Made by a program: the position numbers and the translations under genes. A DNA stretch of 64,000 bases from Cristatella mucedo (Eukaryota > Bryozoa > Phylactolaemata > Cristatellidae): positions 991,001 through 1,055,000 of the forward strand of contig WPIO01000138.1 in assembly GCA_009760855.2 (NCBI GenBank). Direction: 5' to 3'. Below, one piece after another: positions 4,974 through 49,628 of the stretch. Within the stretch, counting starts at the first letter, position 1, and the number at the start of each line of letters is the position of its first letter. The notes beneath the pieces are model-generated. The model was not told the DNA's origin, did no database searches, and saw nothing but the letters and a program-made list of their open reading frames with translations.

Positions 4974-5377
4974 TCATCCGAGCAAAGCGCCAGCAATTGG
5001 GGCTGCAACTTTCGCGACTTTCCAGAGGGTTTTCCAGAAATTTCTCTTGACTTCAGCATAATCTATACGTTGAAGGTTTCAAGGCCTCATTCACGATGCG
5101 AACACCTACATTAAGACGAAACAAGCGCACTGCGAAATTTAGCTGGTGACTTACTTTCAAATGCTTGCTCGAGTTCAGCTAGCTGGTCGCTGTTCAGCTG
5201 CACTTCCTGGTTTTCCGTCTACAAATGCATCATCGGGCTTATTGCTCAAAGCAAGGCAAAAATCTGCACGACATTTGATTCAGGTAACCTGGCTGCACCC
5301 TTACTTACTGAGCGAAGGTCGGCTGTCAGTGCCCCGATTATAAGGCACAGCAACACTAATTCAGCAAGAAGCTTCAT
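4974..5377 (-). CDS. secreted amphipathic cationic peptide precursor, copy 1 (three coding exons)
   Basis: Coding exons on the minus strand are 5,377-5,309, 5,218-5,155 and 5,062-4,974, 222 nt with the TGA, 73 codons. Exon 1 encodes a textbook signal peptide, MKLLAELVLLCLIIGALTA, with predicted cleavage after ALTA, and ends at donor GTAAGT in phase 0. Exon 2 follows TTTGTAG, is rich in Glu and Asp (ENQEVQLNSDQLAELEQ) with no Lys or Arg, and ends at GTAAGT in phase 1. Exon 3 follows CGTATAG, completes an Asn codon, then reads YAEVKR. After the KR dibasic site comes a 22-residue Lys/Trp/Ala-rich segment starting NFWKTLWKVAK, with one Pro, ending GALLG before TGA. Introns are 90 and 92 bp. Signal, acidic pro-piece, KR and an amphipathic helix with terminal Gly are known from antimicrobial peptide precursors; the function is inferred. 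The ATG is preceded by an acceptor (TTCCAG, then AAACC). A second in-frame acceptor, GAAG, lies 12 nt into exon 3. Confidence 0.8.
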
Positions 5378-5540
5378 GGTTTCTGGAACGAAAAGCGGGA
5401 TGGAGAACCACCTATTAGCGTTAAGAGGGAAGATAATTCGCAGCATTGCATGGCATGCACATAAAGCAGGAGGACTTTCTAGGTTGTACATAATGTCTGG
5501 CCTTCACACCGTACTTGCTCGGCAAAAAGAGAGTGGTCTT

Positions 5541-6205
5541 TATAACTATAATGACAATAATGATGGTCATATGCTAAAACTGATCGCTCGATAGTGCTGT
5601 CTCTGCGGCGTACGTAATCTGCTAATAAAAACATTGAATTTTCCATGGGCGCTACAAGAATATTTAATGACCACGACAACAAGCCTAGCTCGATTAAACA
5701 CAATAAACACAGGATACGACTGCAAGTAGGGATACTGGCAGCACTCAGGGTGTCAGCACTTAAAGCACGCAAAGGACAAACCAAAGGAGTCCACTAAATG
5801 CTGTGATCAATACATGCGTTTGAGCTTCTTTGGAGCTTTCGTCTAACACAGGGAATATCTGGACGTCAGTCGGGTGAGTTTTAGGCGTTCGGATAATACG
5901 TGCTGAATTCAAAGTCACCGGAGGATTTGAGCATTATACGAGGCGTAGCGAAACGATTAGATTTAGAAAAGCAGGTCGGACGATGCTTAGCCTGGGGGGG
6001 GGAGTAGGGCTGATACATAGGATCCAGCCAAACGATGAATTAACCTAAATGTGAACGGCAGAACCTCGAACTCGATGCATTGCTTGACTGACAGGCAATG
6101 CAGGTAGGCAAGAATTGGTGCGATGTGGCGACAACGTCGCTCAAGACAGTTGGGTCTGGCTGAAAAGTTTTTCACCAAGCGTTTGTGCATCTTCTGCAAT
6201 CGGCT
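5541..6205 (-). mobile_element. LINE-A 3' fragment inside the leader intron, unit 1
   Basis: 5'-truncated non-LTR retrotransposon. The end of the reverse-transcriptase ORF reads on the minus strand near 6,208-5,990 (ERRCRHIAPILAYLHCLSV, then a RIEF-type and SALLP-type motif), matching the CR1/L2-group C-terminal pattern 'HI-P-L--LHWLPV-QRI-FK'. The 3' UTR runs down to an AT-rich, AAT-like tail at about 5,541-5,570. Paralogue copy 5 lacks the whole insertion near 49,795-49,810. Confidence 0.7.
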
Positions 6206-6646
6206 CATTTGTAACTACCACTATCCGTATACTCCAAGCTCGCATTGCAAGACAGACGTTTATTTAGAAAAAAGGTTAGGAGCTACAGATGGTTATTAAA
6301 GCTTAGTTTTGATTTTTAAGATTCCGCACTAGGGTAAACAATATTACTTCCACAACCGAACACAGCCACTACATCAGAACGTACTAAACTAACTCTGACA
6401 AAAGAACCATAATACGTCAGTATGGTTAAAATTGACGCAGCTTTTCTGTCGTATATGTTTTCGTACATCACATTGAAACTTTGGTGTGCCGTCATGACAC
6501 TGATTTCCGATCTCGCGTGAATTTCTTTTAAATAAACAAACCCCTTAATGTGCTGTGCTCATAACTGATCGTGCTAGCCTATAACCGTAGGTAACGATCA
6601 TGCAGCATACGCAACGTGCACGTCAAAATTCTGAAAAAGAGCTTAC

Positions 6647-6730
6647 CTAAAGTCTGGAGTCTGCTGATTTGCACTAGAGAAGCAAGATTGATTGATACGT
6701 CTTGTGTCTTGGTCACAGGCTTATATGCAC
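6647..6730 (-). promoter_or_regulatory. candidate TATA box and 5' leader exon of peptide gene copy 1
   Basis: On the minus strand, CATATAAG (TATAAG at 6,725-6,720) is followed about 75 nt later by a good splice donor, AG|GTAAGC, with the exon end at 6,647. The ATG exon starts with an acceptor at 5,383-5,384. A leader exon of roughly 45 nt and a leader intron of about 1.26 kb would join them. TATAAG and the donor are conserved in copies 1 to 4. The transcription start was not observed. Confidence 0.45.
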
Positions 6731-6739
6731 GGAAGACAT

Positions 6740-9174
6740 CTACAATTCCGAGAATCGAGTCGTGTTAGAGGCCGGTGGTGAGTAATGCGGCAGAAGTTGC
6801 CTATTCACTTTGCTTTCCCTTAGCTGCAACTAAATGAAGGGTAACCCACCATGCTAGGGAATCAAAGGGCATTCACTGTCTTGATTGGCATTTAATAATC
6901 ACTTTCTTACCGTACATTCTTTCTTTACTATTGCGTTCATTTTATTGTACCGTTTAAGCTTAAATGTTCTAACTAATTCATATCTCTCTTAGTTTTAAGT
7001 TGTAGCAGTGGACAAACAAATGTAGCTGTTCTTAACAGGGCGTGATGTAACGTTCTAGCCCGTAACTCTTGTGATCGTAGAAATCCTTGCCTTTTTAAAT
7101 GATTGATATAAGCATTTCATGTAAAAGCTAATAAGTAAAGAAATCTAACACGCAAACTGTCCGCACACACTTGCTGGTAGCCGCTGATAACCTGAAAGCG
7201 ATGTTGCAGTGTGACGACGTTCGACTAACTCGAAATATAACCGCTAGTCAATCCGCATGGTGTAGGCTATAAGACAAGACATGTACAGGCTGCCTTGAAG
7301 TAATTCTTAACGCCTTGCAAGGTATTTTATTCACGTGGGATGCGATACAAACTGTGTCGTTTCTGTTCAGGTCCTGGTTTAGGTTGATTTTACATGCAAA
7401 GAAATAGGTGAATTCTACTATTTTTCCATGTGGCACTACTCCTGAAATACGTGCCTACATTCCCACTGCACCTAGAAAAGATTGACCACAATCCACGACT
7501 CGAGGCTTCATAGATAAAGCATTTCAATTTATATTTCTTTCAGAAAATCGTTGAGTGTTTTCATGTAAAGTAGTTTTCAATGAGATCTGGAACGTTTGCT
7601 GATTTTTCTACCCTACCTTCTTCCTAATGCGGATCTTGGCATCGTGGTCAGTGAGAGCTGTGGTTAAGTTGTCGATGGAGTTTAAAGCGGAAATTAAATA
7701 CAATACGCACAGCAAAGCCTCTTCCATTAGACGTGTAGACCTAAAGCAATTATCACACCATTTCGAAGGGCGAAATCATAACGACAAAAAGAGGAATTAC
7801 AAGACTACGGCCAGTTGTTTCATAAGAGATGGTATTTTCATCGAAAACTGCATAGGTCAGCATGTGTTATGGGAAAGCAAGTTATGGTAGACGGCTGGTT
7901 CAGCTCACGGCTAGATGCTATTGACATTATTCATTCGGGCAACGTAGTCTGTGGATAGTTCCAGGGAAACAGTAATCCCAGGATAGATTATTGCAATACA
8001 TCTAAATATATTGCCCCATTTTCATGCGGTTTCTTGCTAAAGGTCGATTACTACGCGATGAAACCGCCTTCGCTGCACCAGTTACGGGTGAAAGAAACAT
8101 TCTAAAATAATTCCACAGATTCTGCTTAATAAATGCAGAATAACCGTTGCGGATTCTTAATTGCAACTTTAGGCCGGAATTTCTGTAAAACTAGAGCTGA
8201 GGTGCTTACACGAACTAAAGCCGTAGTCATTACCTCTACCCACCAACCTTCTGCGTATAGGAACAGTCTGATTACAGATGATGAATACTACGTTTGATGA
8301 ATCATCTCGTCTTAAAAGAGAGTGGGTTGGACTTCCTGCTCCAATTCGCCGTAGCTTGGATGTTCACAGTGTTTTGAAATTATGTTTGTGGTTATTTGCT
8401 CAGCTAAGAGATGTGCTGGTTGTTAGCCAGTGCATACCTCGGACTAGGTAACTCGATTAGGGGTTGACACAACTGGATGGCAAAACGATACGAGAAATGA
8501 GATGTTAAGTAGCAGTAGAGAGCACGTGTGCAACGGTGCATTCACGTTTGCTCCTGCTTGCGTTGTGTGCACTAAACGTGCCGTAGTTGCAGTATACTGT
8601 ATGGTATCGTCTAAGACGAGGCAGAAGATTAATGTTCTTGCTTCGGTCACGCCAGGTGAAGTCCTAGCGGCTAATTGAACGTCTGAAACGCAACGGGTAA
8701 TGGATAAGTATGCAAGCCTAGCGTGTGAACCAAGATTCTGAGATGGGTGGTTGGTTCAACATTTCTTTGTCCTTTCACTCTGCGTCTGTGCCTTCAATTG
8801 CTCTACTACTGAGCTTCTGAGCAGCGCTTGATGGTATCCTGCCTAAATCATTAGCTTCACTTGCTGAGATGTCAATGCATTGCCTATGTCAACGAACTTT
8901 TCTTCTGATGGCAACAATGAGTTGGGTGTTCCCAGACGTAAACTGAAATACGGTCTTGCTAAGTGGGTTGTCATATTCATCTTAGTAAAGCAACAGCTAA
9001 GCAGATACGCTTCTCTCCATAAGCACCTACAATCTCATTTTGCTACATTTGTGAAAAGCACATCTACCATTATTTGTAATAGTTCAATGCCTGTTTAATG
9101 TCTGTACTGTTCCAATTTAAAGCTACCTTACGTTGAGGAACGGTGTGTTTGCAACGTTTAGTGTGTTAGCAATG
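6740..9174. other. unit 1 noncoding spacer
   Basis: AT-rich sequence upstream of the peptide gene promoter. The 88-codon ORF at 7,627-7,890 persists only in the young copies, and the comparison with the old copy near 27,880-28,150 shows no third-base bias, so it is not supported as a gene. The 8,200-9,100 part recurs in many diverged copies (about 120-960, 28,640-28,960, 41,700-42,480, 44,700-45,150) without a conserved frame. Confidence 0.5.
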
Positions 9175-9320
9175 CTAGCTGGTTTGGTCTAGCGGTTAAG
9201 GTGCTCGGCCCGACCAAGGTCTGACTGAGGTCATGGGGTCGAGCCCCAAGGCATATGCAAAGAGCCTGAATGGAGATTTAGCTTTCCTGGGGCGCTATAT
9301 AATGAATTATACATTATATT
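9175..9320 (+). mobile_element. tRNA-derived SINE, unit 1
   Basis: The head has an A-box-like GGTCTAGCGGTTAAGG and a B-box-like GGGTCGAGCCCC about 45 bp later, followed by an unrelated body (GGGGCGCTATATAATG) and an AT-rich tail. The spacing matches an internal RNA polymerase III promoter. The tRNA cloverleaf is decayed and the body is extra, so it is a SINE and not a tRNA gene. Confidence 0.7.
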
Positions 9321-9539
9321 TATAGTTTATATTTATTGTGCTTGTACTATAGGATGAGGAAAAGTACTGTCCTGATTTGTTTCTCATAGTTCGCTCCCAG
9401 TCACCATTTTTGTATTTTCAGTGACTGAATGAAGCTTTTATTATCGCATGAAAACTTTCCTATGTTTTAGATTATATTAGAATTTACAAAATTAATTTCA
9501 ATTTTAGAACTTGACGTTTAATGCTCAATAAATATTCTG

Positions 9540-10566
9540 TAAAGAAAGAAAATTCCAACGGTTAGTGGTACACGGACAGAGCTGACAAGTGCAATATGGA
9601 GCGAGGTAATAGGCATTAGTAAATGTAAATATGTTTAATGGTAGCACGCAAAGTGTCAGCACGCTTTAGAAAACGAAGAACGAATTCCAAAGATCCGCAA
9701 GTCTCTTTGAGAGACATGCGGTTTTCAGCTTATTAATAAATGCAATCAATTTAATGGACATCAATACATCAATCGGCAGTGAGTTACGGGCTTTGGGAGT
9801 ATCCAAAATAGAGGCAATATCACCTCGGGATTTAAGATGGCATCAAAGCACAGCTGGCGGATTCTAGTCATAAAATCGGGTTGTACGATATTTAGCCTGG
9901 CCTAGAGTAGTTAGGACAGTTAGGCATGAGTCAGAGAATGAAGAGTCCTAAAAGTGAGTGACAAACCTTGCTAGAACCTGAGAACGAGTGGGAGCCTCGA
10001 AGTCGATTCACTGCTTGATGAAGCGCCGGCTCAGGTCAGCAAGAAATGGCGTGATTTTGGAAACTGCGACGGACTGACGGAACACAAACGCAAAACGCTG
10101 CAGAGATGCGCATCTCCTGTAAGTACCTGATTGCACAGCCGGTAGACTAGCTAACACTGACTTACAGTAGTCAAGACGCAATGCCAAAAAAAACACTGAA
10201 CACTTTGTGTGCTTAATTCTGGTCTAACGAGGGCCGATATTTCAGTATGGTGCTTAGCTAAAAGTAGGAAGACGCTACCTAGGATGTAACGGGAACCGCT
10301 ATTGATAGGTCGCTTTGGAACTGCACCCTGCGAAGTCGCCCAGGTGCTACCGGGGATGTACTGGCATAGCATATTTTGAGCGTTGAGCTTTCTTGCTTCT
10401 GAGCTTCACTTGATTATAACCAGTATAATGATTTTTCTGTCGTCATTAAATGTTAAAGGTAAGCTGAAATTCGCGTCCGGATTTTAGCAATAGATGCAGC
10501 AACGGAGTTGGAGAATTTGGCACTAGAGGGCTGGGATGGACTGCATCATCGGTAAAGCTGTATCTG
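9540..10566 (-). mobile_element. LINE reverse-transcriptase remnant, unit 1
   Basis: Minus-strand remnant of a CR1/L2-type RT. Near 10,566 a broken YADD region reads YAD followed by a lost codon. Later segments read SPLVPNSPTPLLH, then the thumb-type region around 10,370-10,010 (RLDYCKSVLASLPA, matching the family's 'LDYCNSLLAGLP'), then the ORF end near 9,700. Several frameshifts make it dead. Confidence 0.65.
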
Positions 10567-10745
10567 CGTAATAATGATAACAATACATTGGTTATAATGC
10601 CCCAAAAAACTCATTCTCGTTCTAGGCACATCACATTTGGTACAATGGAAGCACAATTGAATTGTTACTGGTAGCATGCTCAAAGACAACAAGCATAACT
10701 TGATTAGGGGTGACATATACCAAGTCAGCATGAAAGAATGGTTAT
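10567..10745 (-). mobile_element. LINE-A 3' UTR fragment, unit 1
   Basis: Matches the LINE-A 3' UTR seen intact at 37,132-37,306. In units 1 and 2 it stops abruptly at about 10,745, where 3.5 kb present in the 37.3-40.8 kb region is missing. Confidence 0.6.
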
Positions 10746-11789
10746 TGCGCACTTGCGAAAAAAAATCATCGTTTTAGAAATTGCTACGAGACTGCAACCT
10801 GATTTTTTATAGTCGACATCACTTTTCCGATTTTTGGGACGCACCGGTGACTCAACTTGAGGTTTAGGGAAGCGAATTTTAGTACGCGGCTGTTCAAGCT
10901 CGCTCCAAGATGTCCTTCCTTTGGTCGTTTGGCACCGTGGTGGATGCGGGGACCTAAGAAAGATTATTGCAAACTGTATATTATGGCATACCCACACGGT
11001 TACTTGCAAACGTTCGGTTTTAGCTCGATGGAACAGCCTGTGTGGGACCAGTAATGGGTTAATAATTATTCATGGCAGATTCGAAAGCCTCTTTTGATTA
11101 TTAGCAGGATAATCGCCAGCTCAAAAACTAGTTACAAACTGCCTTTCTATAATGGACACGCGGCATATTAAGCAAAACTTAGGCATTAGCCGGTTTTTTC
11201 TGGTGTACGCATCGAAAGCAAGATTACGATATGACCACTGGAGCTGCACACAAGCCACAGGCCACGTAACTGCAAAATATGACCTCTCCACGCTACGTAT
11301 ATGGGTTTTAGGTCAAGTCATTGGCACGCCACATTGCAGCAGTGATCCGAAATCGTCAGCAAAGCCTTCTGGTGTCGTCACTGAGTCGGCGACTTAAATA
11401 TTGGCTCCTCTAACCCGTCTCACGTATAGTGCCTAGCATTCGTAGCTTCGCCATGCCTGGAAATAATTAATGGCAAAAGTCGGTGAACGTCATATTTTAC
11501 AAATGAGTCAGCTGCTCTCAGATATTTCTAGGTCCGCGTACGTGGTCTTCAATATGGAATACTCTTGCTTACACCATGCGTGTTTTGTATACTCGTGAGT
11601 GCTAAGCTAGCCACGTCATAGGAACATTGAGCTTGCTGCCGCTCGCCCAGCAATCAGCTAAAAGAAAGCCACCAGGCGATCATACGTCCGCCAACGGCAT
11701 CACTCCTACTCTCGATTGGGTCAGCGTCCCGATTGAACTGGTTACCTAGGAGGACAGCCACCGGTGTGACAGGCACAACTCGTTCGCGT
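10746..11789. other. unit 1 spacer, no gene supported
   Basis: Contains an 81-codon ORF (11,152-11,397) also present at 1,822-2,067. Most differences between the two change the amino acid, so there is no sign of protein constraint. The rest is unrecognised. Confidence 0.5.
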
Positions 11790-12266
11790 TCTTACGCTGA
11801 CCCACAAGGCCCGCCACGGCTTGGCTCCTTCGTACCTAGCTGAACTGCTGCATCAATTTAAGCCTGTTCGCGCCCTCAGGTCCTGTGTGGACAATAAATT
11901 AGCTGTCCCATTCTTCCGCTTAAAGACAGTTGGCGACAGAAGCTATAGCTCTGCAGGTCCTAGACTGTGAAACTCGCTTCCACAATTCTTACGCAACGAC
12001 AACTACTCTCCTACTGCCGACTATGGCACATCTTTTTTAGCGGTCCTGAGCTGCTACTTCTATGCTACTCACTACCTCAACTGCTCTCAGTTTATCTCTC
12101 CTGACTCTGCTATGCTTCCCACTTTCTCTTCGTTGCGTGAGACGAAGTCTGTTGGCTACCGAATGAGTACCGAAAGCCGCTTTGGCTGTGAGTGCGCTAT
12201 ATAAAACTCTCCTGCGTAACACCCACATGGTCTTTATGACTTTGCGGAGTTACAAACGGAGGTACA
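11790..12266 (+). mobile_element. LINE-B 3' end inserted next to Tigger, unit 1
   Basis: The plus strand reads the RT C-terminus, HKARHGLAPSYLAELLHQF, then RALRSC and SAGPRL (one stop replaces Trp), NSLPQFLRND, then a 3' UTR ending CTCCTGCGTAACACCCACA and GAGTTACAAACGGAGG. The old unit at 2,450-2,485 runs straight through this point, so it is an empty site. Confidence 0.75.
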
Positions 12267-12289
12267 GGCAGACAGGCTTTTGGTCATGC

Positions 12290-14720: not shown

Positions 14721-14726
14721 TTTATT
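14721..14726 (-). terminator. polyadenylation signal AATAAA of peptide gene copy 2
   Basis: Same conserved position as in copy 1, about 55 nt after the stop. Confidence 0.7.
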
Positions 14727-14780
14727 TTCAGAGCTGCGACGTGACGGACACGTTAGAAAGGGTTTCCAGATTTTAAAGAT

Positions 14781-15184
14781 TCATCCGAGCAAAGCGCCAG
14801 CAATTGGGGCTGCAACTTTCGCGACTTTCCAGAGGGTTTTCCAGAAATTTCTCTTGACTTCAGCATAATCTATACGTTGAAGGTTTCAAGGCGTCATTCA
14901 CGATGCGAACACCTACATTAAGACGAAACAAGCGCACTGCGAAATTTAGCTGGTGACTTACTTTCAAATGCTTGCTCGAGTTCAGCTAGCTGGTCGCTGT
15001 TCAGCTGCACTTCCTGGTTTTCCGTCTACAAATGCATCATCGGGCTTATTGCTCAAAGCAAGGCAAAAATCTGCACGACATTTGATTCAGGTAACCTGGC
15101 TGCACCCTTACTTACTGAGCGAAGGTCGGCTGTCAGTGCCCCGATTATAAGGCACAGCAACACTAATTCAGCAAGAAGCTTCAT
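14781..15184 (-). CDS. secreted amphipathic cationic peptide precursor, copy 2 (three coding exons)
   Basis: Coding exons 15,184-15,116, 15,025-14,962 and 14,869-14,781, at an exact offset of 9,807 from copy 1. Exon lengths of 69, 64 and 89 nt, donors (GTAAGT twice) and acceptors are the same. All three exons encode the same residues as copy 1: signal peptide, acidic pro-segment, then KR and the segment beginning NFWKTLWK and ending GALLG. The gene sits in the same order between an AATAAA on one side and the LINE-A insertion plus candidate leader exon on the other. Unlike copy 1, its promoter flank is full length. It is probably expressed if copy 1 is. Reading the 81-codon continuous ORF at 15,053-15,298 as the gene would ignore two well-formed splice sites. 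Confidence 0.8.
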
Positions 15185-15347
15185 GGTTTCTGGAACGAAA
15201 AGCGGGATGGAGAACCACCTATTAGCGTTAAGAGGGAAGATAATTCGCAGCATTGCATGGCATGCACATAAAGCAGGAGGACTTTCTAGGTTGTACATAA
15301 TGTCTGGCCTTCACACCGTACTTGCTCGGCAAAAAGAGAGTGGTCTT

Positions 15348-16453: not shown

Positions 16454-16537
16454 CTAAAGTCTGGGGTCTGCTGATTTGCACTAGAGAAGCAAGATTGATT
16501 GATATGTCCTGTGTCTTGGTCACAGGCTTATATGCAC
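16454..16537 (-). promoter_or_regulatory. candidate TATA box and leader exon of peptide gene copy 2
   Basis: CATATAAG (TATAAG at 16,532-16,527) and donor AG|GTAAGC with the exon end at 16,454, as in copies 1 and 4. The 107-bp block deleted in copy 1 lies just upstream at 16,604-16,710. Confidence 0.45.
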
Positions 16538-16539
16538 GG

Positions 16540-19097
16540 TAGACATCTACAATTCCGAGAATCGAGTCGTGTTAGAGGCCGGTGGTGAGTAATGCGGCAG
16601 AAGCTTTTTTTCTGCTTAACAGCCTTCCCTGCTTTGCTACCATTCGCGGAATTTCTGAGTAATAATTTCGTATCAGATCCCAATAGTAAGCCTGCTAAGT
16701 CTCGAACGACTTGCCTATTCACTTTGCTTTCCCTTAGCTGCAACTAAATGAAGGGTAACCCACCATGCTAGGGAATCAAAGGGCATTCACTGTCTTGATT
16801 GGCATTTAATACTCACTTCACATTTGATTCACTTCTTACCGTACATTCTTTCTTTACTATTGCGTTCATTTTATTGTACCGTTTAAGCTTAAATGTTCTA
16901 ACTAATTCATATCTCTCTTAGTTTTAAGTTGTAGCAGTGGACAAACAAATGTAGCTGTTCTTAACAGGGCGTGATGTAACGTTCTAGCCCGTAACTCTTG
17001 TGATCGTAGAAATCCTTGCCTTTTTAAATGATTGATATAAGCATTTCATGTAAAAGCTAATAAGTAAAGAAATCTAACACGCAAACTGTCCGCACACACT
17101 TGCTGGTAGCCGCTGATAACCTGAAAGCGATGTTGCAGTGTGACGACGTTCGACTAACTCGAAATATAACCGCTAGTCAATCCGCATGGTGTAGGCTATA
17201 AGACAAACATGTACAGGCTGCCTTGAAGTAATTCTTAACGCCTTGCAAGGTATTTTATTCACGTGGGATGCGATATACAAACTGTGTCGTTTCTGTTCAG
17301 GTCCTGGTTTAGGTTGATTTTACATGCAAAGAAATAGGTGAATTCTACTATTTTTTGTGGCACTACTCCTGAAATCCGTGCCTACATCCCACTGCACCTA
17401 GAAAAGATTGACCACAATCCAGACTCGAGGCTTCATAGATAAAGCATTTCAATTTATATTTCTTTCAGAAAATCGTTGAGTATTTTCATGTAAAGTATTT
17501 TTCAATGAGTTCTGGAACGTTTGCCGTTTTTTTCCCCCCTACCTTCTTCCTAATGCGGATCTTGGCATCGTGGTCAGTGAGAGCTGTGGTTAAGTTGTCG
17601 ATGGAGTTTAAAGCGGAAATTAAATACAATACGCACAGCAAAGCCTCTTCCATTAGACGTGTAGACCTAAAGCAATTATCACACCATTTCGAAGGGCGAA
17701 ATCATAACGACAAAAAGAGGAATTACAAGACTACGGCCAGTTGTTTCATAAGAGATGGTATTTTCATCGAAAACTGCATAGGTCAGCATGTGTTATGGGA
17801 AAGCAAGTTATGGTAGACGGCTGGTTCAGCTCACGGCTAGATGCTATTGACATTATTCATTCGGGCAACGTAGTCTGTGGATAGTTCCAGGGAAACAGTA
17901 ATCCTAGGATAGATTATTGCAATACATCTAAATATATTGCCGCATTTTCATGCGGTTTCTTGCTAAAGGTCGATTACTACGCGATGAAACCGCCTTCGCT
18001 GCACCAGTTACGGGTGAAAGAAACATTCTAAAATAATTCCACAGATTCTGCTTAATAAATGCAGAATAACCGTTGCGGATTCTTAATTGCAACTTTAGGC
18101 CGGAATTTCTGTAAAACTAGAGCTGAGGTGCTTACACGAACAGCCGTAGTCATTACCTCTACCCACCAACCTTCTGCGTATAGGAACAGTCTGATTACAG
18201 ATGATGAATACTACGTTTGATGAATCATCTCGTCTTAAAAGAGAGTGGGTTGGACTTCCTGCTCCAATTCGCCGTAGCTTGGATGTTCACAGTGTTTTGA
18301 AATTATGTTTGTGGTTATTTGCTCAGCTAAGAGATGTGCTGGTTGTTAGCCAGTGCATACCTCGGACTAGGTAACTCGATTAGGGGTTGACACAACTGGA
18401 TGGCAAAACGATACGAGAAATGAGATGTTAAGTAGCAGTAGAGAGCACGTGTGCAACGGTGCATTCACGTTTGCTCCTGCTTGCGTTGTGTGCACTAAAC
18501 GTGCCGTAGTTGCAGTATACTGTATGGTATCGTCTAAGACGAGGCAGAAGATTAATGTTCTTGCTTCGGTCACGCCAGGTGAAGTCCTAGCGGCTAATTG
18601 AACGTCTGAAACGCAACGGGTAATGGATAAGTATGCAAGCCTAGCGTGTGAACCAAGATTCTGAGATGGGTGGTTGGTTCAACATTTCTTTGTCCTTTCA
18701 CTCTGCGTCTGTGCCTTCAATTGCTCTACTACTGAGCTTCTGAGCAGCGCTTGATGGTATCCTGCCTAAATCATTAGCTTCACTTGCTGAGATGTCAATG
18801 CATTGCCTATGTCAACGAACTTTTCTTCTGATGGCAACAATGAGTTGGGTGTTCCCAGACGTAAACTGAAATACGGTCTTGCTAAGTGGGTTGTCATATT
18901 CATCTTAGTAAAGCAACAGCTAAGCAGATACGCTTCTCTCCATAAGCACCTACAATCTCATTTTGCTACATTTGTGAAAAGCACATCTACCATTATTTGT
19001 ATTAGTTCAATGCCTGTTTAATGTCTGTACTGTTCCAATTTAAAGCTACCTTACGTTGAGGAACGGTGTGTTTGCAACGTTTAGTGTGTTAGCAATG
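16540..19097. other. unit 2 noncoding spacer
   Basis: Equivalent of 6,740-9,174 plus the 107-bp block. A minus-strand frame (16,743-16,528) is partly kept in copies 3 and 5 but shifts frame between them, so I treat it as promoter-proximal sequence. Confidence 0.45.
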
Positions 19098-22188: not shown

Positions 22189-22211
22189 GGCAGACAGGCT
22201 TTTGGTCATGC

Positions 22212-24002: not shown

Positions 24003-24406
24003 TCGTCCAAGAAAAGCGCCAGCAATTGGGACTGCAACTTTCACGATCTTCCAGAGGGTTTTCCAGAAATTTCTCTTGACTTCAGCGTAATCTATAAGTT
24101 GAAGGTGTCAAGGTGTCATTCACGATGCGTACACCTATATCGAGACGTAACAAGCGCACAGCGAAATTTAGCTGGTGACTTACTTTCAAACGCTTGCTCG
24201 AGTTCAGCTAGCTGATCGCTGTTAAGCTGCACTTCCTGATTTTTCGTCTACAAAGGCATTGTCGAGCTCATTGCTCACAGCGAGGCAAAAATCTGTACGG
24301 CGATTAAAGCAGGAAAGCTGACTGCACCCTCACTTACGGGACGAAGGTCGGCTGTCAGTGCCCCGATTATAAGGCACAGCAACACTAATTCAGCATGAAG
24401 CTTCAC
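24003..24406 (-). pseudogene. secreted amphipathic peptide precursor, copy 3 (start and stop lost)
   Basis: The exon structure is intact: 24,406-24,338, 24,247-24,184 and 24,091-24,003, with lengths 69, 64 and 89 nt, intron 1 of 90 bp, donors GTAAGT and acceptors TTTGTAG and TTATAG. The frame stays open. However, the start codon is GTG (24,406-24,404) and the stop position reads CGA (24,005-24,003), so translation would run into the 3' flank. Exon 3 keeps NYAEVKR and NFWKTLWK and then differs (KIVKVAVPIAGAFLG). AATAAA is kept at about 23,947-23,952. This is most simply a recently dying gene, because the splice sites and frame have outlived the start and stop codons. Confidence 0.75.
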
Positions 24407-24552
24407 GGTTTCTGGAACAGACAAAGCGGGATGGAGAAACACTTATTAGCGTTATGACAGAAGATAATTCGCAGCATACTCAAAACACGGGAGAACTTTC
24501 TAGGTGGTAAATAATGTCTAGCCTTCACGCACTGCTTGCTAGGGAAACACTG

Positions 24553-25564: not shown

Positions 25565-25648
25565 CTAAATTCCGAAGTCTGCTGGTTTGCAACAAGGAAG
25601 CAAGATCGCCTGATACGTCCTGGTTTTTGGTCACTGGCTTATAGGAAT
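25565..25648 (-). promoter_or_regulatory. candidate TATA box and leader donor of peptide gene copy 3
   Basis: TATAAG at 25,643-25,638 and donor AG|GTAAAC with the exon end at 25,565. Kept despite strong divergence around it. Confidence 0.4.
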
Positions 25649-31921: not shown

Positions 31922-32325
31922 TCATCCCAGCACCTTGAAAGCAATTGGGGCTGCAACTTTCGCGACTTTCCAGAGGGTTTTCCAGAAATTTCTCTTGACT
32001 TCAGCGTAATCTATACGTTGAAGGTTTCAAGGCGTCATTCACGATGCGAACACCTACATTAAGACGAAACAAGCGCACTGCGAAATTTAGCTGGTGACTT
32101 ACTTTCAAATGCTTGCTCGAGTTCAGCTAGCTGGTCGCTGTTCAGCTGCACTTCCTGGTTTTCCATCTACAAATGCATCATCGGGCTTATTGCTCAAAGC
32201 AAGGCAAAAATCTGCACGACATTTGATTCAGGTAACCTGGCTGCACCCTTACTTACAGAGCGAAGGTCGGCTGTCAGTGCCCCGATTATAAGGCACAGCA
32301 ACACTAATTCAGCAAGAAGCTTCAT
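31922..32325 (-). CDS. secreted amphipathic cationic peptide precursor, copy 4 (variant C-terminus)
   Basis: Coding exons 32,325-32,257, 32,166-32,103 and 32,010-31,922, with lengths 69, 64 and 89 nt. The signal peptide is identical to copy 1. Exon 2 starts MENQ instead of TENQ and is otherwise the same. Exon 3 keeps the KR and NFWKTLWKVAK start, but the last five residues are FKVLG where copies 1 and 2 have GALLG, before the same TGA. The change adds a Lys and a Phe and keeps the length and terminal Gly, so the predicted amphipathic peptide is diversified, not broken. Donors are GTAAGT twice. The leader acceptor before ATG is intact. TATAAG and the leader donor are present upstream. Confidence 0.8.
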
Positions 32326-32488
32326 GGTTTCTGGAACGAAAAGCGGGATGGAGAACCACCTATTAGCGTTAAGAGGGAAGATAATTTGCAGCATTGCATG
32401 GCATGCACATAAAGCAGGAGGACTTTCTAGGTTGTACAGAATGTCTAGCCTTCACACCGTACTTGCTCGGCAAAAAGTGAGTGGTCTT

Positions 32489-33596: not shown

Positions 33597-33680
33597 CTAA
33601 AGTCTGGGGTCTGCTGATTTGCACAACAGAAGCAAGATTGATTGATATGTCCTGTGTCTTGGTCACAGGCTTATATGCAC
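33597..33680 (-). promoter_or_regulatory. candidate TATA box and leader exon of peptide gene copy 4
   Basis: TATAAG at 33,675-33,670 and donor AG|GTAAGC with the exon end at 33,597, identical to copy 2. Confidence 0.45.
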
Positions 33681-33689
33681 GGTAGACAT

Positions 33690-35744
33690 CTACAATTCCG
33701 AGAATCGAGTCGTGTTAGAGGCCGGTGGTGAGTAATGCGGCAGAAGCTTTTTTTCTGCTTAACAGCCTTCCCTGCTTTGCTACCATTCGCGGAATTTCTG
33801 AGTAATAATTTCGTATCAGATCCCAATAGTAAGCCTGCTAAGTCTCGAACGACTTGCCTATTCACTTTGCTTTCCCTTAGCTGCAACTAAATGAAGGGTA
33901 ACCCACCATGCTAGGGAATCAAAGGGCATTCACTGTCTTGATTGGCATTTAATACTCACTTCACATTTGATAATCACTTTCTTACCGTACATTCTTTCTT
34001 TACTATTGCGTTCATTTTATTGTACCGTTTAAGCTTAAATGTTCTAACTAATTCATATTTCTCTTAGTTTTAAGTTGTAGCAGTGGACAAACAAATGTAG
34101 CTGTTCTTAACAGGGCGTGATGTAACGTTCTAGCCCGTAACTCTCGTGATCGTAGAAATCCTTGCCTTTTTAAATGATTGATATAAGCATTTCATGTAAA
34201 AGCTAATAAGTAAAGAAATCTAACACGCAAACTTTCCGCACACACTTGCTGGTAGCCGCTGATAACCTGAAAGCGATGTTGCAGTGTGACGACGTTCGAC
34301 TAACTCGAAATATAACCACTACTCAATCCGCATGGTGTAGGCTATAAGACAAAACATGTACAGGCTGCCTTGAAGTAATTCTTAACGCCTTGCGAGGTAT
34401 TTAATTCACGTGGGATGCGATACAAAATGTATCTTTTCTGTTCAGGTCCTGGTTTAGGTTGATTTTACATGCAAAGAAATAGGTGAGTTCTACTATTTTT
34501 TCTCCTGAAATCCGTGCCTACATGCTTACTGCACCTAGAAAAGATTGACCGCAATCCAAGACTCGAGGCTTCATAGATAAAGCATTTCAATTTATATTTC
34601 TTTCAGAAAATCGTTCAGTATTTTCATGTAAGGTATTTTTCAATAAGATCTGGAACGTTTGCCGATTTTTCTACCCTACCTTCTTCCTAATGCGGATCTT
34701 GGCATCGTGGTCAGTGAGAGCTGTGGTTAAGTTGTCGATGGAGTTTAAAGCGGAAATTAAATACAATACGCACAGCAAAGCCTCTTCCATTAGACGTGTA
34801 GACCTAAAGCAATTATCACACCATTTCGACGGACGAAATCATAACGACAATAAGAGGAATTACAAGACTACGGCCAGTTGTTTCATAAGAGATGGTATTT
34901 TCATCGAAAACTGCATAGGTCAGCATGTGTTATGGGAAAGCAAGTTATGGTAGACGGCTGGTTCAGCTCACGGCTAGATGCTATTGACATTATTCATTCG
35001 GGCAACGTAGTCTGTGGATAGTTCCAGGGAAACAGTAATCCCAGGATAGATTATTGCAATACATCTAAATATATTGCCCCATTTTCATGCGGTTTCTTGC
35101 TAAAGGTCGATTACTACGCGATGAAACCGCCTTCGCTGCACCAACGTGCCGTAGTTGCAGTATACTGTATGGTATCGTCTAAGACGAGGCAGAAGATTAA
35201 TGTTCTTGCTTCGGTCACGCCAGGTGAAGTCCTAGCGGCTAATTGAACGTCTGAAACGCAACGGGTAATGGATAAGTATGCAAGCCTAGCGTGTGAACCA
35301 AGATTCTGAGAGAGGTGGTTGGTTCAACATTTCTTTGTCCTTTCACTCTGCGTCTGTGCCTTCAATTGCTCTACTACTGAGCTTCTGAGCAGCGCTTGAT
35401 GGTATCCTGCCTAAATCATTAGCTTCACTTGCTGAGATGTCAATGCATTGCCTATGTCAACGAACTTTTCTTCTGATGGCAACAATGAGTCGGGTGTTCC
35501 CAGACGTAAACTGAAATACGGTTTTGCTTAGTGCGTTGTCATATTAATCTTAGTAAAGCAACAGCTAAGCAGATACGCTTCTCTCCGTAAGCATCAGCAA
35601 CCTCATTTTGCTACGTTTGTGAGAAGCACATCTCCCATTATTTGTAATAGTTCAATGCCTGTTTAATGTCTGTACTGTTCCAATTTAAAGCTACCTTACG
35701 TTGAGGAACGGTGTGTTTGCAACGTTTAGTGTGTTAGCAATGCT
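33690..35744. other. unit 4 noncoding spacer
   Basis: Equivalent of 16,540-19,097, with 493 bp deleted at 35,143 (corresponding to about 18,008-18,507). No gene supported. Confidence 0.5.
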
Positions 35745-42534: not shown

Positions 42535-44690
42535 ATAATAATAATAATAATGAACTTGATAAAGTGCTCTCAGAGAACTCAATCTCTGTCTGGGAGCTTT
42601 ACATTTGTTGCAAAGGAAACACGATCGTATAGTGGGTGGTATCATGCTTGATAAACAATATGAATAACATGGTTGTGGTGACATGGTTAGGGGTGACAAC
42701 TTCTCGTCTGCTGCCGACTGTGGCTCATCCTTTTCAGCGGTCCTGAGCTGCTAATTCTATGCTACTCACTACCTCAACTGCTCTCCTGACTCCGCTATGC
42801 TTCCCACTTTCTTTTTGTTGCGTGAGTCAAAGTCTCTTGGCCACCGAATGCGTACCGAAAGCCGCTTAGGCTGTGAGTGCGCTGTACAAAACTCTCCTGC
42901 GTAACACCCACATAGTCCTTATGACTTTGTCGAGTTACAAACGGAAATACGTTACGTTACATTGCATGCACATGGTCACCATGCACGTATGGTTAGTCGC
43001 AGCATGCACAGTGTCAGCAGACTTAAGCACATAAATGAAGAATCACATGGACCCACTAAATGCTTTCATAAAGAGGTGAATTTTTAATTTATTTTTAAAT
43101 GTGAAAGTCATGGGAAGTCGTGACGCAAGCCGGGAGTGGGTTCCGGAGCATACGAACTAAATGCACGGTCTCCGGAGGATTTGAGGTTTGTCTGAGGTAC
43201 AGGTGAACAGTTATTTTCCGATAAGCGGGCAGTGCGATGCTTCGCCTGATGGGAGACTAGATCTCATAGGTAGACTGGAGCCAAAGAATAAAGGGACCTA
43301 AAAGCGAGCGACAGAACCTTGAAGTCGATGCGTTTTTTGACTGGTAGCCAGTGCAGGTGGGCCAAAGGTGCTGTGATGTGGCAACTGCGAAGCTCAAGAC
43401 AGACAAGCCCAGCTGCAGAGTTGTTTGCCAGCTGTAAGCGCCTGATTGCACAGGCCGGCAGGCCAGCAAGCAGTGAGTTACAGAAGTCAAGACAAGATAT
43501 CACAAAAGCGTGGACGAACTTAAATGTCTTATTCCTATCTGAACAAGCCCGAATTGTATCAATTTTATGTAGCTAAAAGTAGACAGACTTGATTGTGGAG
43601 CTGATTTGGACGTCTAACGAAAGGTCACTTTGGAACATGACACCTAGATTTTGTGCTGATTCAACAGGAGAAATGCTGGCAGAGCCGATTTTGAGCGTTA
43701 GCCTTTCCAATTTCTGAATCGCAATTGGTTTGCCCATAACTAGTAAGTTAGTTCAATTATCATTCCATTGAAGAAAATGTGCTGCCTTTGATATGGGATA
43801 TCAGCAAGGGAGTTGAGAAAATTCGATGCGCTCGAAGGATGGGAGGGATCAAAGCAAAGGTTTCAACTGAGTGTCATCCGCATAGAAGTGAAAGCCTAGA
43901 TTTTGCTTGGCAATCACATCGGCAAAAGGCAGAGTATAAACTGTGAAAAGAACCGGACCTAGCACGCAGGCGCGAGGTACCCTATATTTCAGAGGTACAT
44001 CGGATGATCTTTGTCTATTCAGATCAATACTCTGGAGTCACCCACTAAAATAGGACCTGAGTCGTAGAAGAGCAGTGCCAGTGAAGCTCAGGCGAGATGA
44101 GAGGAGTTCGAGAAGGACTTGGTGATAGATAGTATCAAAAGCTGCCGAAGGATCGAGCAAAATAAGCAGAGATGCTCTACCCTTGTCTGCATTCCTGAGT
44201 AGTTCGTTGTACACTTGAAGCAATGCTGACTCCGTGGATTGATTAGCCCTAAAGCCAGACTGGAACTTACTAGCAAGGTTTGAAGTTACAATATATGATG
44301 AGTTCAGCTGGTCTGCCCCGACTTGTTCTTTGATAGGAATGGTATAAGGGAGACTGGGCGGTAGTTGCTCAAGTTCTCTTGGTCTAGTGTCGCTTTCATG
44401 AGTAGTGGCATGACTACACCTTTTTTGAAAGGTGCTGGGACATGACCTGAGGATAATGACATAAAGGTAATGATGTTATTTATGCATGGCAGCAGCAGGT
44501 TAATGCAACGTAGTAGGAGCAGGACAGTTGGAATGCGTTCCAAAGGACTTGCCTTGTTTTATCGGAATATGAACTTCAGGACAAGATCACTGGTGAGCTA
44601 CTTGAATGTAGACACTGAGGTACTGCAAGGAATCGAAGGATAGCATTATAGGGGGATGCTGCCATCGCAGGGATGGACTTCCTTATCTTG
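42535..44690 (-). mobile_element. LINE-A with recognisable reverse transcriptase, broken
   Basis: Longest LINE-A in the window, minus strand. In order: IPTVLLLLRCINLLL and LSNYRPVSLIPFLSK (44,540-44,310), LLILLDPSAAFDTIYHQVLL (about 44,170-44,110), an intact YADD box followed by TQLK at 43,884-43,862, LDFCNSLLAGLPA (about 43,490), HLHWLPVKKRIDFKVLSLAF (about 43,350), then the ORF end near 43,150. The 3' UTR reaches an AAT tail at 42,530-42,548. Frameshifts and the absence of an endonuclease make it non-autonomous. A LINE-B 3' end is nested at 42,700-42,968. Confidence 0.8.
42700..42968 (+). mobile_element. LINE-B 3' end nested in LINE-A
   Basis: Starts in the C-terminal RT coding part (CTGCCGACTGTGGCTCATCC), contains CTCCTGCGTAACACCCACAT and GAGTTACAAACGGAAATAC, and ends in a GTTAC repeat tail. 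The LINE-A 3' UTR resumes on both sides. Confidence 0.7.
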
Positions 44691-45156
44691 ACGATCACGA
44701 ATCACAAATATTTATGCGACGGTTCGCGGAGGTTTGCTCTTTCCCGTTTCGTGCGAACTAGTCGTACTCTAGTTTTATTGATACTGTAAGGTCCCTTCCG
44801 AGGCAAGGCAGAAGATGAATGCTCTCCCGTCCCTCTAGCCAGGTAAAGGCCTGGTGAAGTGAACGTCTGAAACGCCACGTGTCCTGGATACGGCTGCAAG
44901 CGTAGCTCGCTTACAAAGATCGGGTGATGGATGGCTGGTTCGATGTTTCTTTCTCCTTGCACTTTGCGTATGTACCTGTAAATAGTCAGCTACTCAGCTT
45001 CAGAGCTGCGATTGGTAACATGCTGCCGAAGCATTTAGCTTCATTTGTTGAAAGGTCAAGGCAATGGAAAGATCAGGGACTTCTACTCAGAGGGCAAAGA
45101 TTCAAAGTTAATTGGGCTTTCCCAAAGGTCAGCAGAAGTACGAGCATGCTCTATCC
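44691..45156. repeat. diverged unit segment left of the hAT insertion
   Basis: Matches 8,450-8,960 of unit 1. The plus-strand ORF at 44,924-45,271 runs into the transposon and is not supported as a gene. Confidence 0.5.
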
Positions 45157-47866
45157 CAGGGGTGTCCAACACGTGGCCCGCAGGCCACAACCCGGCCCGC
45201 CGAGGTCTTCTTTGCGGCCCGCAACGTTATCCAAAAAATATTTGTCACTTCATGTTTTTCGTTATTTTTAATCATTACAAACGGCAATATAAGGCGCTGT
45301 GATGTACTACACGCGCGCGTGAAGCGTGAAGGTGTCCGAATGGCTATTTTCGCGTGAAGGTAAAAAATCGTTTTATTTTGCTAGCCTTCATGTGAACATT
45401 TTGGCGTGAAGGAGTAATATATTTCTGCTACAGCGGCGCCATTACGATCACATTTATAACGCTTCCGCAAGCGGAATTTACTGTTTCACACTGTGGTTAG
45501 AAAAAAATAGCTGTTTCTCAGCTGCTGCTGCACGAACGGGAATCAGTCAGGTAGGTTTTTCAAAAAACGCGTATTGCTCAACTTACTTACTAATACTAAG
45601 ATATTGCTGTGATAAAATATAAATTAATCAATTCTTAACTGATCTGATTTTTTATTTCACATAGAAAAATGGCGGCGAATGTGAATACTAGTAAAAAACA
45701 AAAAATTGACGCAGAAGGAAGACTTTTCAAAGAATCTTGGACTGTAGACTATTTTGTAATGGAACGCTTCGGTAGGATAATGTGTCTAATATGCCAAGAA
45801 ACAATTGCCGTTGCAAAGGAGTACAATGTTAAGTGACATTTTTCAACAAAGCATGGCGACAGGTACAACAGCCTGACTGGTCAACTTCGAATTGATCGCG
45901 TGAACTCGTTGAAACAAAGCGTCATCGGACAGCAGTCATTGTTTACAGCAGTCAGCAACAAGTCTGAGGCTTCAACCACAGTAAGTTTTGTAATAGCTGA
46001 AGCTATAGCTAAGCGGGGGAAAGCATTTCCGATGGTGAATTTGTTAAGGAATGCCCCAGGCTGTTTACTGGTGTGGTCTGTCCAGAAAAAAAGTCAGAAG
46101 TAGAGAAAGTCAGCCTTTCTCATTAAACGGTTGCGAGAAGAGTTCACGAGCTCGCATCCAACATAGAAGAAATTCTCACTAAAAGACTTGCTGAATGCAA
46201 ATTGTATTCTCTTGCGCTCGACGAAAGCACGGACAATAGCGATACGGCTCAACTGTCGGTGTTTGTACGCGGAGTAACAGGAAAGTTTGTCACTATCGAA
46301 GAACTGCTGGATATATTTTCAATGAAAGGCACTACAACGGGGAGGGATATTTTGGATCAGGTCAAGAGGGTCCTCACAAAATTTAATCTTCCTGAAACTA
46401 AATTTATTGGTTTAACAACAGACTGAGCCCTTTCAATGACAGGTAGACATAATGGATTTGTATATTTAATGGTAAAATTAGTACCTCACAAAATTGTCAG
46501 TCACCACTGCATCATCCACCAAGAACAGCTATGTGCAAAGATCTTGGGCATGCAACATGTTATGGACAATGTAGTTTCAACAGTCAATGTGATAAGGTCT
46601 CGTTTGCTAAACAACAGACAATTTCAGGCTTTCCTTGAAGAGTTGGGATCAGATCATTGTGATGTTATTTATTTCTGCCAAGTCCGTTGGCTAAGTAGGG
46701 CAAACACGTTAGCCAGGTTTTGGTCACTTCGGACGAAATAAAAACATTTATGACAGAAAAGGGAAAAGATGTTGGCTTCCTCGATGACCAGCAGTGGTTG
46801 AATGACTTGGCTTTTTTGGTGGACATGACCAAACATCTTGCAGATCTTAATGTCAAACTCCAAGGTAAGGATCAACTGGTCCATAAAATGTATGAGTGTG
46901 TTGTCGCGTTTGTGCAAAAGCTAAAACTTTTTCCGGAAACACTTAGATCAGAAGAAACTGTTACATTTCACAACACTAGCAACAAGATCACCTGAAACGC
47001 TTGCTCATATGAAGTACTCCACTCTTGTTAGCAAACTTGTTGATGAATTTGAAGAGAGGTTTCAGGATTTCCAACAACATGCGTATGACATGAACATGAT
47101 TAGTAATCCATTTAATATCGATCCCTCCGATGCACCTGATGAATTTCAACTCGAACTAATTGATATTCATGATGACAGCAATTTAAAAACTGCTTGTGAT
47201 CAGCATGACCTTGTTACCTTTTACAAGCAGTATGTTTCATCAGAGTCTTTTCCTAACCTAGCCAAACATGCTCGCAGGTATGTTTCCCTTTTTGGCAGCT
47301 CATATTGCTGTGAGCAGCTTTTTTCCAGACTAAAAAATGTGAAAACAATGACTCGATCCGTTCTCACAGATGAACATTTATCAGGAATCCTTAGAATTGC
47401 CACATCCACTGTTGCAGCAGATGTCGACCTTTTATGCAAACAGAAACAATGCCAAGTATCTCATTGATGCCTGCAGTGCAGAAGACATTGAATACCTGTG
47501 GCATTTAATTAATCCGAAGACATTAATATTATGTGAGTCCTTGTCATGTAATTTTGTAAGTTTTATAAGTTTCTGTCTTCATGTTATTAAAATAAAAATC
47601 CAAAAGTTAAATATTGGCCATAATATCTATCGAGTTATTTTCCAGGACACATGATCAAATTTTTATTATTTATTATTTTTTAATTATAATTATGCTAAAA
47701 AATACTATTATATTGCGGTTTATTAATTAAGTATAATAGTAATAGTCATACTAAATTACGATCTTATTTTCTGATGCGGTCAACTACGCCAATTTACATG
47801 TGGCCCCCCGGACCTTTTAAGTTTTTGAAATGTGGCCCCCCAAAGCAAAAAGGTTGGACACCTCTG
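45157..47866 (+). mobile_element. hAT DNA transposon with TIRs and 8-bp target duplication
   Basis: The ends are CAGGGGTGTCCAAC (45,157-45,170) and GTTGGACACCTCTG (47,853-47,866), inverted repeats with one mismatch in 14. They are flanked by a perfect 8-bp duplication, CTCTATCC (45,149-45,156 and 47,867-47,874), the target size of the hAT superfamily. Subterminal GGCCCGC boxes lie at the left end and TGGCCCCCC boxes at the right. Four copies of GCGTGAAG(G) lie at 45,317-45,412 and may be transposase-binding sites. Unit copies at about 866, 8,968 and 18,891 are empty sites. Confidence 0.9.
45669..47467 (+). pseudogene. hAT transposase pseudogene (GTF2IRD2/EPM2AIP1-like group)
   Basis: Starts at ATG 45,669. 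A BED-type zinc-finger region (MCLICQETIAVAKEYNV, then HFSTKHGDRY) is interrupted by TGA at 45,834. The catalytic core follows: LYSLALDESTDNSDTAQLSV near 46,205, FIGLTTD then a TGA at 46,424, MTGRHNGFVYLM and HHCIIHQEQLCAKILG near 46,505-46,555, and VRWLSRANTL near 46,685. The C-terminal dimerisation region is YVSLFGSSYCCEQLFSRLKN (about 47,280-47,340) and DEHLSGILRIA. A further TAA lies at 46,124, and frameshifts lie near 46,025, 46,740 and 46,990. It is therefore inactive, but the termini are well preserved. The assignment rests on the Asp motif, the HCxxH motif, the dimerisation motif and the TIR/TSD. Confidence 0.85.
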
Positions 47867-47874
47867 CTCTATCC

Positions 47875-48130
47875 TATGTCATATTCATCTCAGTAAAGTA
47901 AGAGCTAAACAGATATGCTTCTCTCCAAATGACACGTCGGACTTATTGCAACTATTTTCGTGAATATTATTTGTACTTTAGTAAAGTGTTCTATTTTATT
48001 TTTGAATTAATTTACCATGCTAATTCTTGGCTTTTGAGACGACATACCAGTCTCCCCTATGTAATATTTAGGTCGTATGAGTGTCACGTGCGACTGACTA
48101 TTTCTAAAGAACCAGACTTTTGAAGATCAT
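47875..48130. repeat. diverged unit segment right of the hAT insertion
   Basis: TGTCATATTCATCTCAGTAA continues the unit at the 8,970 phase for about 100 bp, then decays. Confidence 0.5.
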
Positions 48131-49163
48131 ATCTTGCATATAAAATATATTAATGAATTTTAGAAATCACTTCTCAACTTCTGTAAATCACTCACTGCTC
48201 GTCTTCCGAAGTTTGCAGTAAGGCACTCAAAGTTATGGGGAAATTCTGAAGCTACGTTGTCGTTAGAGATCGTTTATGTCGTTACACTACGTCAGTTATC
48301 GCCGACATGGATTTGCTCTCAGTCAAGCAGTGCATAGAATTTAAGTTTTGTATTACACTTTAGTAAATTTCTCTCTAATTCCGGCATACCTACAGTATAA
48401 AAGGCGCTTCCCCAACCAACCTAGGCGTTGCACTAGACACTCATCTGAAACAGGTAGTTTAGCTGTAACTTGAACCAACAAAAAGTCATTTTAAACTTTA
48501 ATAGCTATAGAAATCAAATAAAACCAGCTTAAGTTTTGTTTGTTGGACGATATGTTTCATTTGTTTTAAAATCCGGTAATTGTTTGTAGAAAAGTCATTT
48601 ACCGATGATGAAGCACTAGCTGGCAGCAACGACTAAGCTCGACACCATGTGGTGTCACCCTCTAAAAAATGAAACTCAGTCGTTCGACGTTGGCAGCTAT
48701 TCAGCTACTTTGCGTTGTCACAAAATAGGCATAAATTCGCTTGCAAGCGTAAGTGAGACTGGCACTTTTTACATGAGTTGGTTGGTTGGTTCTGTCCCTT
48801 AATTTCAGCAGACAGTCGTTTTAATAAATCATTAAATTTTCTGCGTCTACCTCAGGAATGCTCTTTCAGCACGTTTGCAGCGGCGGGAGAGTAAGAATGT
48901 AGTGTTTTTTGCCTTCCGTCTTGTTACCGATGGCAAGTGCGGCAATAGTTGTCAGCATCTGAACATTGGCAGTGGAACACTGACAGATCTTACATAAGGC
49001 ACGCTTGAAAAGTTGTTTCTTAAGACAGCCTTCTCACTCATATTGAGCCTACTGATAATTGCTATGGGAAAAGTCACCGGATCTCGTGCATGCATCAAGA
49101 TCTTGTGCCAGGCCAGCAAACGTTGCAATCCAGATATTCACTATTAATTTGCAGTCTCGAAAT
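48131..49163. other. copy 5 downstream flank with a TATA box and a broken signal-like ORF
   Basis: TATAAAAG at 48,396-48,403 (plus strand) is a strong TATA match. At 48,669 an ATG opens MKLSRSTLAAIQLLCVV, a signal-peptide-like stretch, but TAG follows at 48,726 and a donor-like GTAAGT at about 48,749 lies beyond the stop. From about 48,930 the sequence aligns to the 4,680-4,913 phase. No gene can be claimed. Confidence 0.3.
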
Positions 49164-49169
49164 TTTATT
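49164..49169 (-). terminator. polyadenylation signal AATAAA of peptide gene copy 5
   Basis: Conserved AATAAA about 55 nt after the TAA stop, in an otherwise diverged flank. Confidence 0.6.
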
Positions 49170-49221
49170 TTCCATTTTTGACATCACGAAGGCTTTCACA
49201 AGAGTGTCGAAATTTAGCTGT

Positions 49222-49628
49222 TTAGCTAAATAAAGCACCAAGAGCCACTGAGGCTACAGTCTTCACGACTTGCCACAGAGTTTTCCAGAAATTTCTCTTG
49301 ACTGTAGTGTACTCAATAAAGAAAACGGTTCGCGGAGTCACTCAGAATGCGAACACGTATACCAGGTTGAAACAATCGTACTGTGACATACAGGTCACGG
49401 CTCACTTTCAAGTGCTTGCTCGAGTTCAACGAGCTGGTCGCTGTTCAGCTGCACTTCCTGTTTTTTCGTCTACAAAGGCATCATCAGGCTTATTGCTCAC
49501 AGCGAGGCCACAATGTGCAAGACCTGTAATTCGGGAAACCTAACTGCACTCTCACTTACGGGACGAAGTTCGGCTGTCAGTGCCCCAATTATAAGGCACG
49601 GCAAAACTACTTCAGCAAGAAGCTTCAT
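49222..49628 (-). CDS. secreted amphipathic peptide precursor, copy 5 (most diverged)
   Basis: Exon 1 is 49,628-49,560 (MKLLAEVVLPCLIIGALTAE) with donor GTAAGT. Exon 2 is 49,469-49,406 (KKQEVQLNSDQLVELEQALE) with donor GTGAGC. Lengths 69 and 64 nt and intron 1 of 90 bp match the other copies. A 2-nt loss upstream puts the usual exon 3 acceptor out of frame. The alternative acceptor CTACAG, with exon 3 at 49,301-49,222, stays in frame and gives KR, then NFWKTLWQVVK, ending ALFS and TAA, without the terminal Gly. Intron 1 and flanks have diverged more than the exons, as expected for a gene under constraint until recently. The TATA box and leader donor are lost, so expression is doubtful. Confidence 0.55.

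Follow-up and report, generated by a model that had tools for sequence, protein, structure and literature searches.

A minus-strand tandem family of small genes probably encoding secreted amphipathic peptides in Cristatella mucedo

Organization of the array

The window, i.e. the whole 64-kb stretch of DNA analysed, contains a tandem array of five related gene copies (c1 to c5) on the minus strand. A preliminary description of this DNA had presented them as five uniform genes. Reading of all five loci bore out the copies and their strand, but only c1, c2 and c4 are intact; c3 is a probable pseudogene and c5 a doubtful copy. The copies themselves are real, while their number and uniformity were overstated.

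2461 to 37314, no strand: segmental tandem duplication carrying c1 to c4, with aligned pieces of at least 900 bases that are 85-98.9% identical
4974 to 5382, minus strand: c1, intact, 73-aa precursor, 5 nt of 5' UTR; exons 5377-5309, 5218-5155 and 5062-4974
4914 to 4919, minus strand: AATAAA of c1
14781 to 15189, minus strand: c2, coding sequence identical to that of c1; exons 15184-15116, 15025-14962 and 14869-14781
24003 to 24411, minus strand: c3, probable pseudogene, with GTG at the ATG and CGA at the stop; exon positions 24406-24338, 24247-24184 and 24091-24003
31922 to 32330, minus strand: c4, intact, with the tail FKVLG where c1 has GALLG; exons 32325-32257, 32166-32103 and 32010-31922
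49222 to 49633, minus strand: c5, aligned acceptor absent; exons 49628-49560 and 49469-49406, in-frame alternative exon 3 at 49301-49222

The unit of c2 lies 9.8-9.9 kb from that of c1, and the two share one stretch of 6,927 aligned bases at 99.4% identity and another of 4,320 at 93.6% (gaps not counted). No difference separates c1 from c2 over all 222 coding nucleotides, and c4 differs from c1 at only 10 of the 222, making these three copies near-duplicates. The most diverged copy, c5, lies 17 kb past c4. Judged by their sequences, the five copies are therefore not five independent witnesses, and the effective lineages are three: c1, c2 and c4 together, c3, and c5. A profile scan revealed no sixth copy in the window, and a further divergent copy was rejected, since the next best match to the gene-body profile had an E-value of only 0.68.

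The window has a G+C content of 43.5%, with observed/expected ratios of 0.92 for CpG and 1.28 for GpC, values that point to an animal genome, of an arthropod or otherwise, in which CpG is little depleted. Neither an Rfam match at the gathering score nor a tRNA was found in it. A 180-aa open frame (46925-47467, plus strand) corresponds to the dimerisation domain of a hAT transposase (Pfam PF05699, E 3e-6, above the cut-off), and a reverse-transcriptase fragment is located at 44038-44475 on the minus strand (Pfam RVT_1, E 3e-5, below the cut-off). Seven tandem-repeat rows were listed, among which a (TG)n microsatellite of ~50 units (53589-53687) is the sole dinucleotide array. A 10-bp tandem array of GTGGATTGTG, present in 13.7 copies, occupies 58200-58336.

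Structure of the genes and their promoters

The c1 gene has three coding exons of 69, 64 and 89 nt, with introns of 90 and 92 bp (both GT-AG) between them, and its product is the precursor MKLLAELVLLCLIIGALTADLRSTENQEVQLNSDQLAELEQAFENYAEVKR|NFWKTLWKVAKVAAPIAGALLG. Exon 1 (69 nt), intron 1 (90 nt, GT-AG) and exon 2 (64 nt) are constant in all five copies, as the preliminary description held, and an AATAAA follows the gene in each (4919, 14726, 23948, 31867 and 49169). Its claim of a shared third exon of about 89 nt applies to c1, c2 and c4, where this exon has 89 nt and a stop; the stop is lost in c3 and the acceptor in c5. The same three copies have GT-AG boundaries at both introns, and they keep the TATA-like box, the start, the splice sites and the stop.

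The two remaining copies are altered in different ways. In c3, GTG replaces the ATG and CGA replaces the stop, so that the frame would continue for 31 codons; this copy is probably a pseudogene. In c5 the ATG survives and the frame is open, yet the three nucleotides ahead of its aligned exon 3 are TTG instead of ending in AG. Splicing at an ACAG located 12 nt inside that exon, and in frame, would yield an exon 3 of 80 nt with the frame kept. The resulting precursor would have 70 residues, with most of the NYAEV segment gone. One extra codon, in frame, is also present in c5, and its C-terminal residue is a serine, not a glycine.

Upstream of the coding exons, the following elements were identified:

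6647 to 6725, minus strand: TATA-like box (from 6725) and inferred exon 0 of c1; the exon ends ..TTTAG at 6647, followed by GTAAGC
16454 to 16532, minus strand: TATA-like box and inferred exon 0 of c2
25565 to 25643, minus strand: TATA-like box and inferred exon 0 of c3
33597 to 33675, minus strand: TATA-like box and inferred exon 0 of c4

The TATA-like sequence TATAAGCC begins 74 bp ahead of TTTAG|GTAA in four of the five copies (c1, c2, c3 and c4), and GTTCCAG|AAACC is found directly 5' of the start-codon position in all five. This spacing, together with the latter motif, suggests a putative start site and an untranslated first exon (exon 0) of ~50 nt, followed in c1 by an intron of ~1.26 kb (6646-5383). 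Upstream of c5, TATAAGCC is missing, and the exon-0 donor reads TTTTGTTAAGC in place of the TTTAGGTAA of the other copies, leaving only a weak, shifted GT.

Control of these promoters through kappa-B is unsupported, as a kappa-B-like site (GGGRNNYYYY type) was found in none of the four within 1 kb upstream of the TATA boxes. This tells little, because the whole window contains 13 sites of this type and their absence is thus expected by chance as well. A second, partial match to the promoter-region profile (E 2e-9) lies a short way 5' of the promoters of c2 and c4 (16718-16810 and 33861-33953, minus strand). The alignment of the upstream region shows a 107-bp gap in c1, where a local direct repeat may have been lost.

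Conservation and selection

Between c1 and c5, exons 1 and 2 have changed at 13 of 133 positions, compared with 451 of 1253 other non-coding columns (p=6e-11); these columns comprise upstream, intron 0, intron 2, 3' UTR and downstream sequence, exon 0 (20/56) and intron 1 being left out. For exon 3, changed at 23 of 89 positions, the difference from the flanks falls short of significance (p=0.066). Divergence in intron 1 (17/90) is lower than in the rest of the non-coding sequence (p=8e-4) and does not differ significantly from that of exons 1 and 2 (p=0.07). With intron 1 partly conserved, and the two exons not significantly more so, some of the exon conservation signal may stem from gene conversion. 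For c1 and c3, 18 of 222 exonic positions differ against 299 of 1137 in intron 0 (p=2e-10), with 18/90 in intron 1 (p=0.005) and 10/92 in intron 2.

The Nei-Gojobori dN/dS ratios for exons 1 and 2 are 0.14 (c1-c3), 0.30 (c1-c4) and 0.48 (c1-c5), and those from the KR onward are 0.58, 1.11 and 0.34, respectively; values were similar with the start codon included and with another placement of the c5 gap. Over the whole coding sequence, c1 and c3 are separated by 7 amino-acid changes, where random placement gives 11.2 (P 0.018). The corresponding figures are 19 and 23.0 for c1-c5, which is marginal (P 0.07), and 4 and 7.1 for c1-c4, where the P of 0.031 is unreliable because seven of the ten changes fall within 12 nt, several per codon. 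Partial regions gave P 0.58 (c1-c3, KR onward) and P 0.40 (c1-c5, exons 1 and 2).

The synonymous excess on which the preliminary description had made its coding claim depend is thus seen in c1-c3, and is weak. All these comparisons share c1 and are hence not independent, and the copy giving the best P, c3, is probably dead. As read from the substitutions, the signal of purifying selection is weak. The only exonic indel is one whole codon, which says little, because c1 and c5, as aligned, also have introns 1 and 2 of the same length.

The precursor and its mature peptide

The 73-aa precursor starts with a signal peptide, continues with an acidic pro-piece that terminates in KR, and closes with a peptide of 22 residues, the last of which is a glycine, a possible amide donor. 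The signal region of c1 reaches a 9-residue Kyte-Doolittle peak of 3.39. The pro-piece carries a side-chain charge of -7 over 30 residues, and the peptide one of +3 (+4 in c4). This succession of parts, with a Lys/Trp-rich amphipathic peptide, had been described for all five copies; it holds for c1, c2 and c4. These three combine the features of a secreted, dibasic-processed and amidated peptide, namely the hydrophobic signal, the KR and the C-terminal glycine. A glycine occupies the aligned C-terminal position in c3 without a stop after it. The NFWKTLWK described as the start of the peptide is exact in four copies and reads NFWKTLWQ in c5.

The mature peptide is unusually amphipathic. Its helical moment in c1 is 0.45, a value equalled by only 22 of 20,000 shuffled sequences; among as many shuffles, 10 were as high for c3, 33 for c4 and 114 for c5. 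Six-frame reading of the window gave 337 stretches made of a dibasic site, 18-28 aa and a stop. Four of them pass a filter for moment (at least 0.37), charge (at least 2) and mean hydrophobicity (at least 0.25), cut-offs chosen with the values of the family known, and all four belong to this peptide family. A 31-aa exon-3 stretch, in which the two N-terminal residues and a portion of the third codon derive from the intron, was modelled with AlphaFold2 from the single sequence; the best of the five models (mean pLDDT 87.7, pTM 0.38) has a single predicted helix spanning residues 4-30. With its positive charge, its helical amphipathicity and a mature peptide free of cysteine, the sequence has the characters of the linear cationic amphipathic helical class.

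The C-terminal tail of the peptide differs in c4:

31928 to 31939, minus strand: c4 exon-3 substitution cluster relative to c1, 7 changes in 12 nt, frame-preserving

Ahead of GGA TGA, the codons of c4 are TTC AAG GTG CTG, where c1 has GGC GCT TTG CTC. Despite this cluster, frame, length, glycine, stop and amphipathicity are kept. Exon 3 of c4 (8/89) is enriched for changes over the remaining compared region (p=0.03); outside this exon, 73 of 1,869 sites differ from c1. The profile scan found no donor for this tail in the window. It possibly arose from conversion by an unseen paralogue, or from selection.

Comparison with known peptides

No credible relative was found in Pfam, NCBIfam or the PDB, a limited search scope that does not make the family an orphan. 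In Pfam-A, the precursors of c1, c4 and c5 and the mature peptide of c1 gave nothing above the curated cut-offs, cecropin included; the matches listed concern unrelated families, at 10-15 bits for cut-offs of 22-28. In NCBIfam, a prokaryote library, c1 and c5 had only weak, unrelated matches. The PDB returned one match for the mature peptide (a photosystem subunit, E=1) and one for a mis-joined precursor query (E=1.1). The 11 peptide words of the family that were looked up occur in no paper of the PMC library. Viral contigs scanned with the precursor and with the hAT fragment gave no match, as expected for a nuclear gene.

In frog-skin prepropeptides of the dermaseptin type, a signal peptide, an acidic pro-piece and a KR precede an amphipathic peptide, which is often amidated. 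In the genes described here, unlike that type, pro-piece and peptide are mostly on separate exons, and no Pfam match lies above the cut-off; the resemblance is most likely convergent. Cecropins are longer than 21-22 residues. They are described as having a tryptophan near the N-terminus, an amphiphilic helix, an amidated C-terminus and two helices (PMC4874388). To the extent of that description, the c1-c5 peptide resembles them in its N-terminal-region tryptophan, its amphiphilic helix and, in c1, c2 and c4, its predicted amidated C-terminus, whereas it has 21-22 residues released at a KR, a single predicted helix and no Pfam match.

Ceratotoxins are linear, secreted peptides. Those of the medfly (Ceratitis) are described as a lineage-restricted antibacterial family of seven genes, associated with female accessory glands and the egg surface (PMC5034548). 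They are likened to c1-c5, for which an antibacterial role is proposed, as a family of linear secreted peptides, by description alone, and no kinship is claimed. The tick antimicrobial peptides listed in PMC7962413 are microplusin/hebraein, defensin, 5.3-kDa and ixodidin, microplusin being rich in Cys and His; insect defensins are given as disulphide-stabilised (PMC4874388). The mature c1-c5 peptide has no cysteine and differs in this from both microplusin and the defensins, as these are described there.

Proposed function

The array is best explained as a small multigene family for secreted cationic amphipathic peptides of host-defence type, to which we give a probability of about 0.5. The gene models of c1, c2 and c4, the exon conservation, the number of amino-acid changes (below random placement in c1-c3 and marginally so in c1-c5), the amphipathicity, the predicted helix and a c4 tail that keeps its features despite the cluster support this explanation; the lack of kappa-B-like sites, the weak selection, the partly conserved intron 1 and a c5 without the glycine weigh against it. 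After transcription and splicing, the signal peptide would route the precursor into the secretory path, where the acidic pro-piece would offset the cationic peptide up to the moment of cleavage after the KR by a proprotein convertase. The C-terminal glycine of c1, c2 and c4 would then be converted to an amide, giving NFWKTLWKVAKVAAPIAGALL-amide, a helix of 21 residues with a charge of +3 (+4 in c4) that may insert into membranes, most likely microbial ones. The bulk of the product would derive from these three copies.

A peptide of the same membrane-active type could instead serve in venom, saliva or a reproductive accessory-gland secretion rather than in systemic immunity. The anatomy of the genes fits such a use as well, an immune-type promoter site was not seen, and the ceratotoxins offer a precedent; with no pointer to a gland within the window, we consider it an appreciably weaker candidate than host defence. 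It is rather unlikely that the array is non-functional, either as duplicated non-coding DNA or as a wholly dead family whose open frames are remnants. The losses in c3 and c5 and the weak synonymous excess would agree with decay, and partial conversion could mimic exon conservation, but c1, c2 and c4 keep every signal sought, exons 1 and 2 have diverged far less than the flanks, and the peptide tail is exceptional among the 337 stretches.

An amidated signalling peptide, a neuropeptide or pheromone freed after the KR, appears the least probable. A KR and a C-terminal glycine, both present in c1, c2 and c4, are standard prohormone features. Strong helical amphipathicity along the whole peptide speaks against this role, as do the amplification of the gene and the altered C-terminal tail of c4, unusual for a receptor ligand; such ligands usually keep their C-terminus.

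The peptide family is thus real and probably coding, with three intact members, and is of a familiar kind. Its host-defence role, read from the architecture, is plausible. More tentatively, it may represent a lineage-specific orphan family, with amidated peptides active on membranes and about one exon per functional module, spread by tandem duplications of ~10 kb, in which the C-terminus of the c4 peptide is being rewritten, perhaps through conversion by an unseen paralogue. Since this kind of molecule is familiar, the gain would be a candidate antimicrobial and the new family to which it belongs rather than a new principle. If expressed, these genes would form a peptide family overlooked by single-ORF calling, because their coding exons measure only 64-89 nt, and a single array would display how peptide genes are duplicated, lost and rapidly altered.
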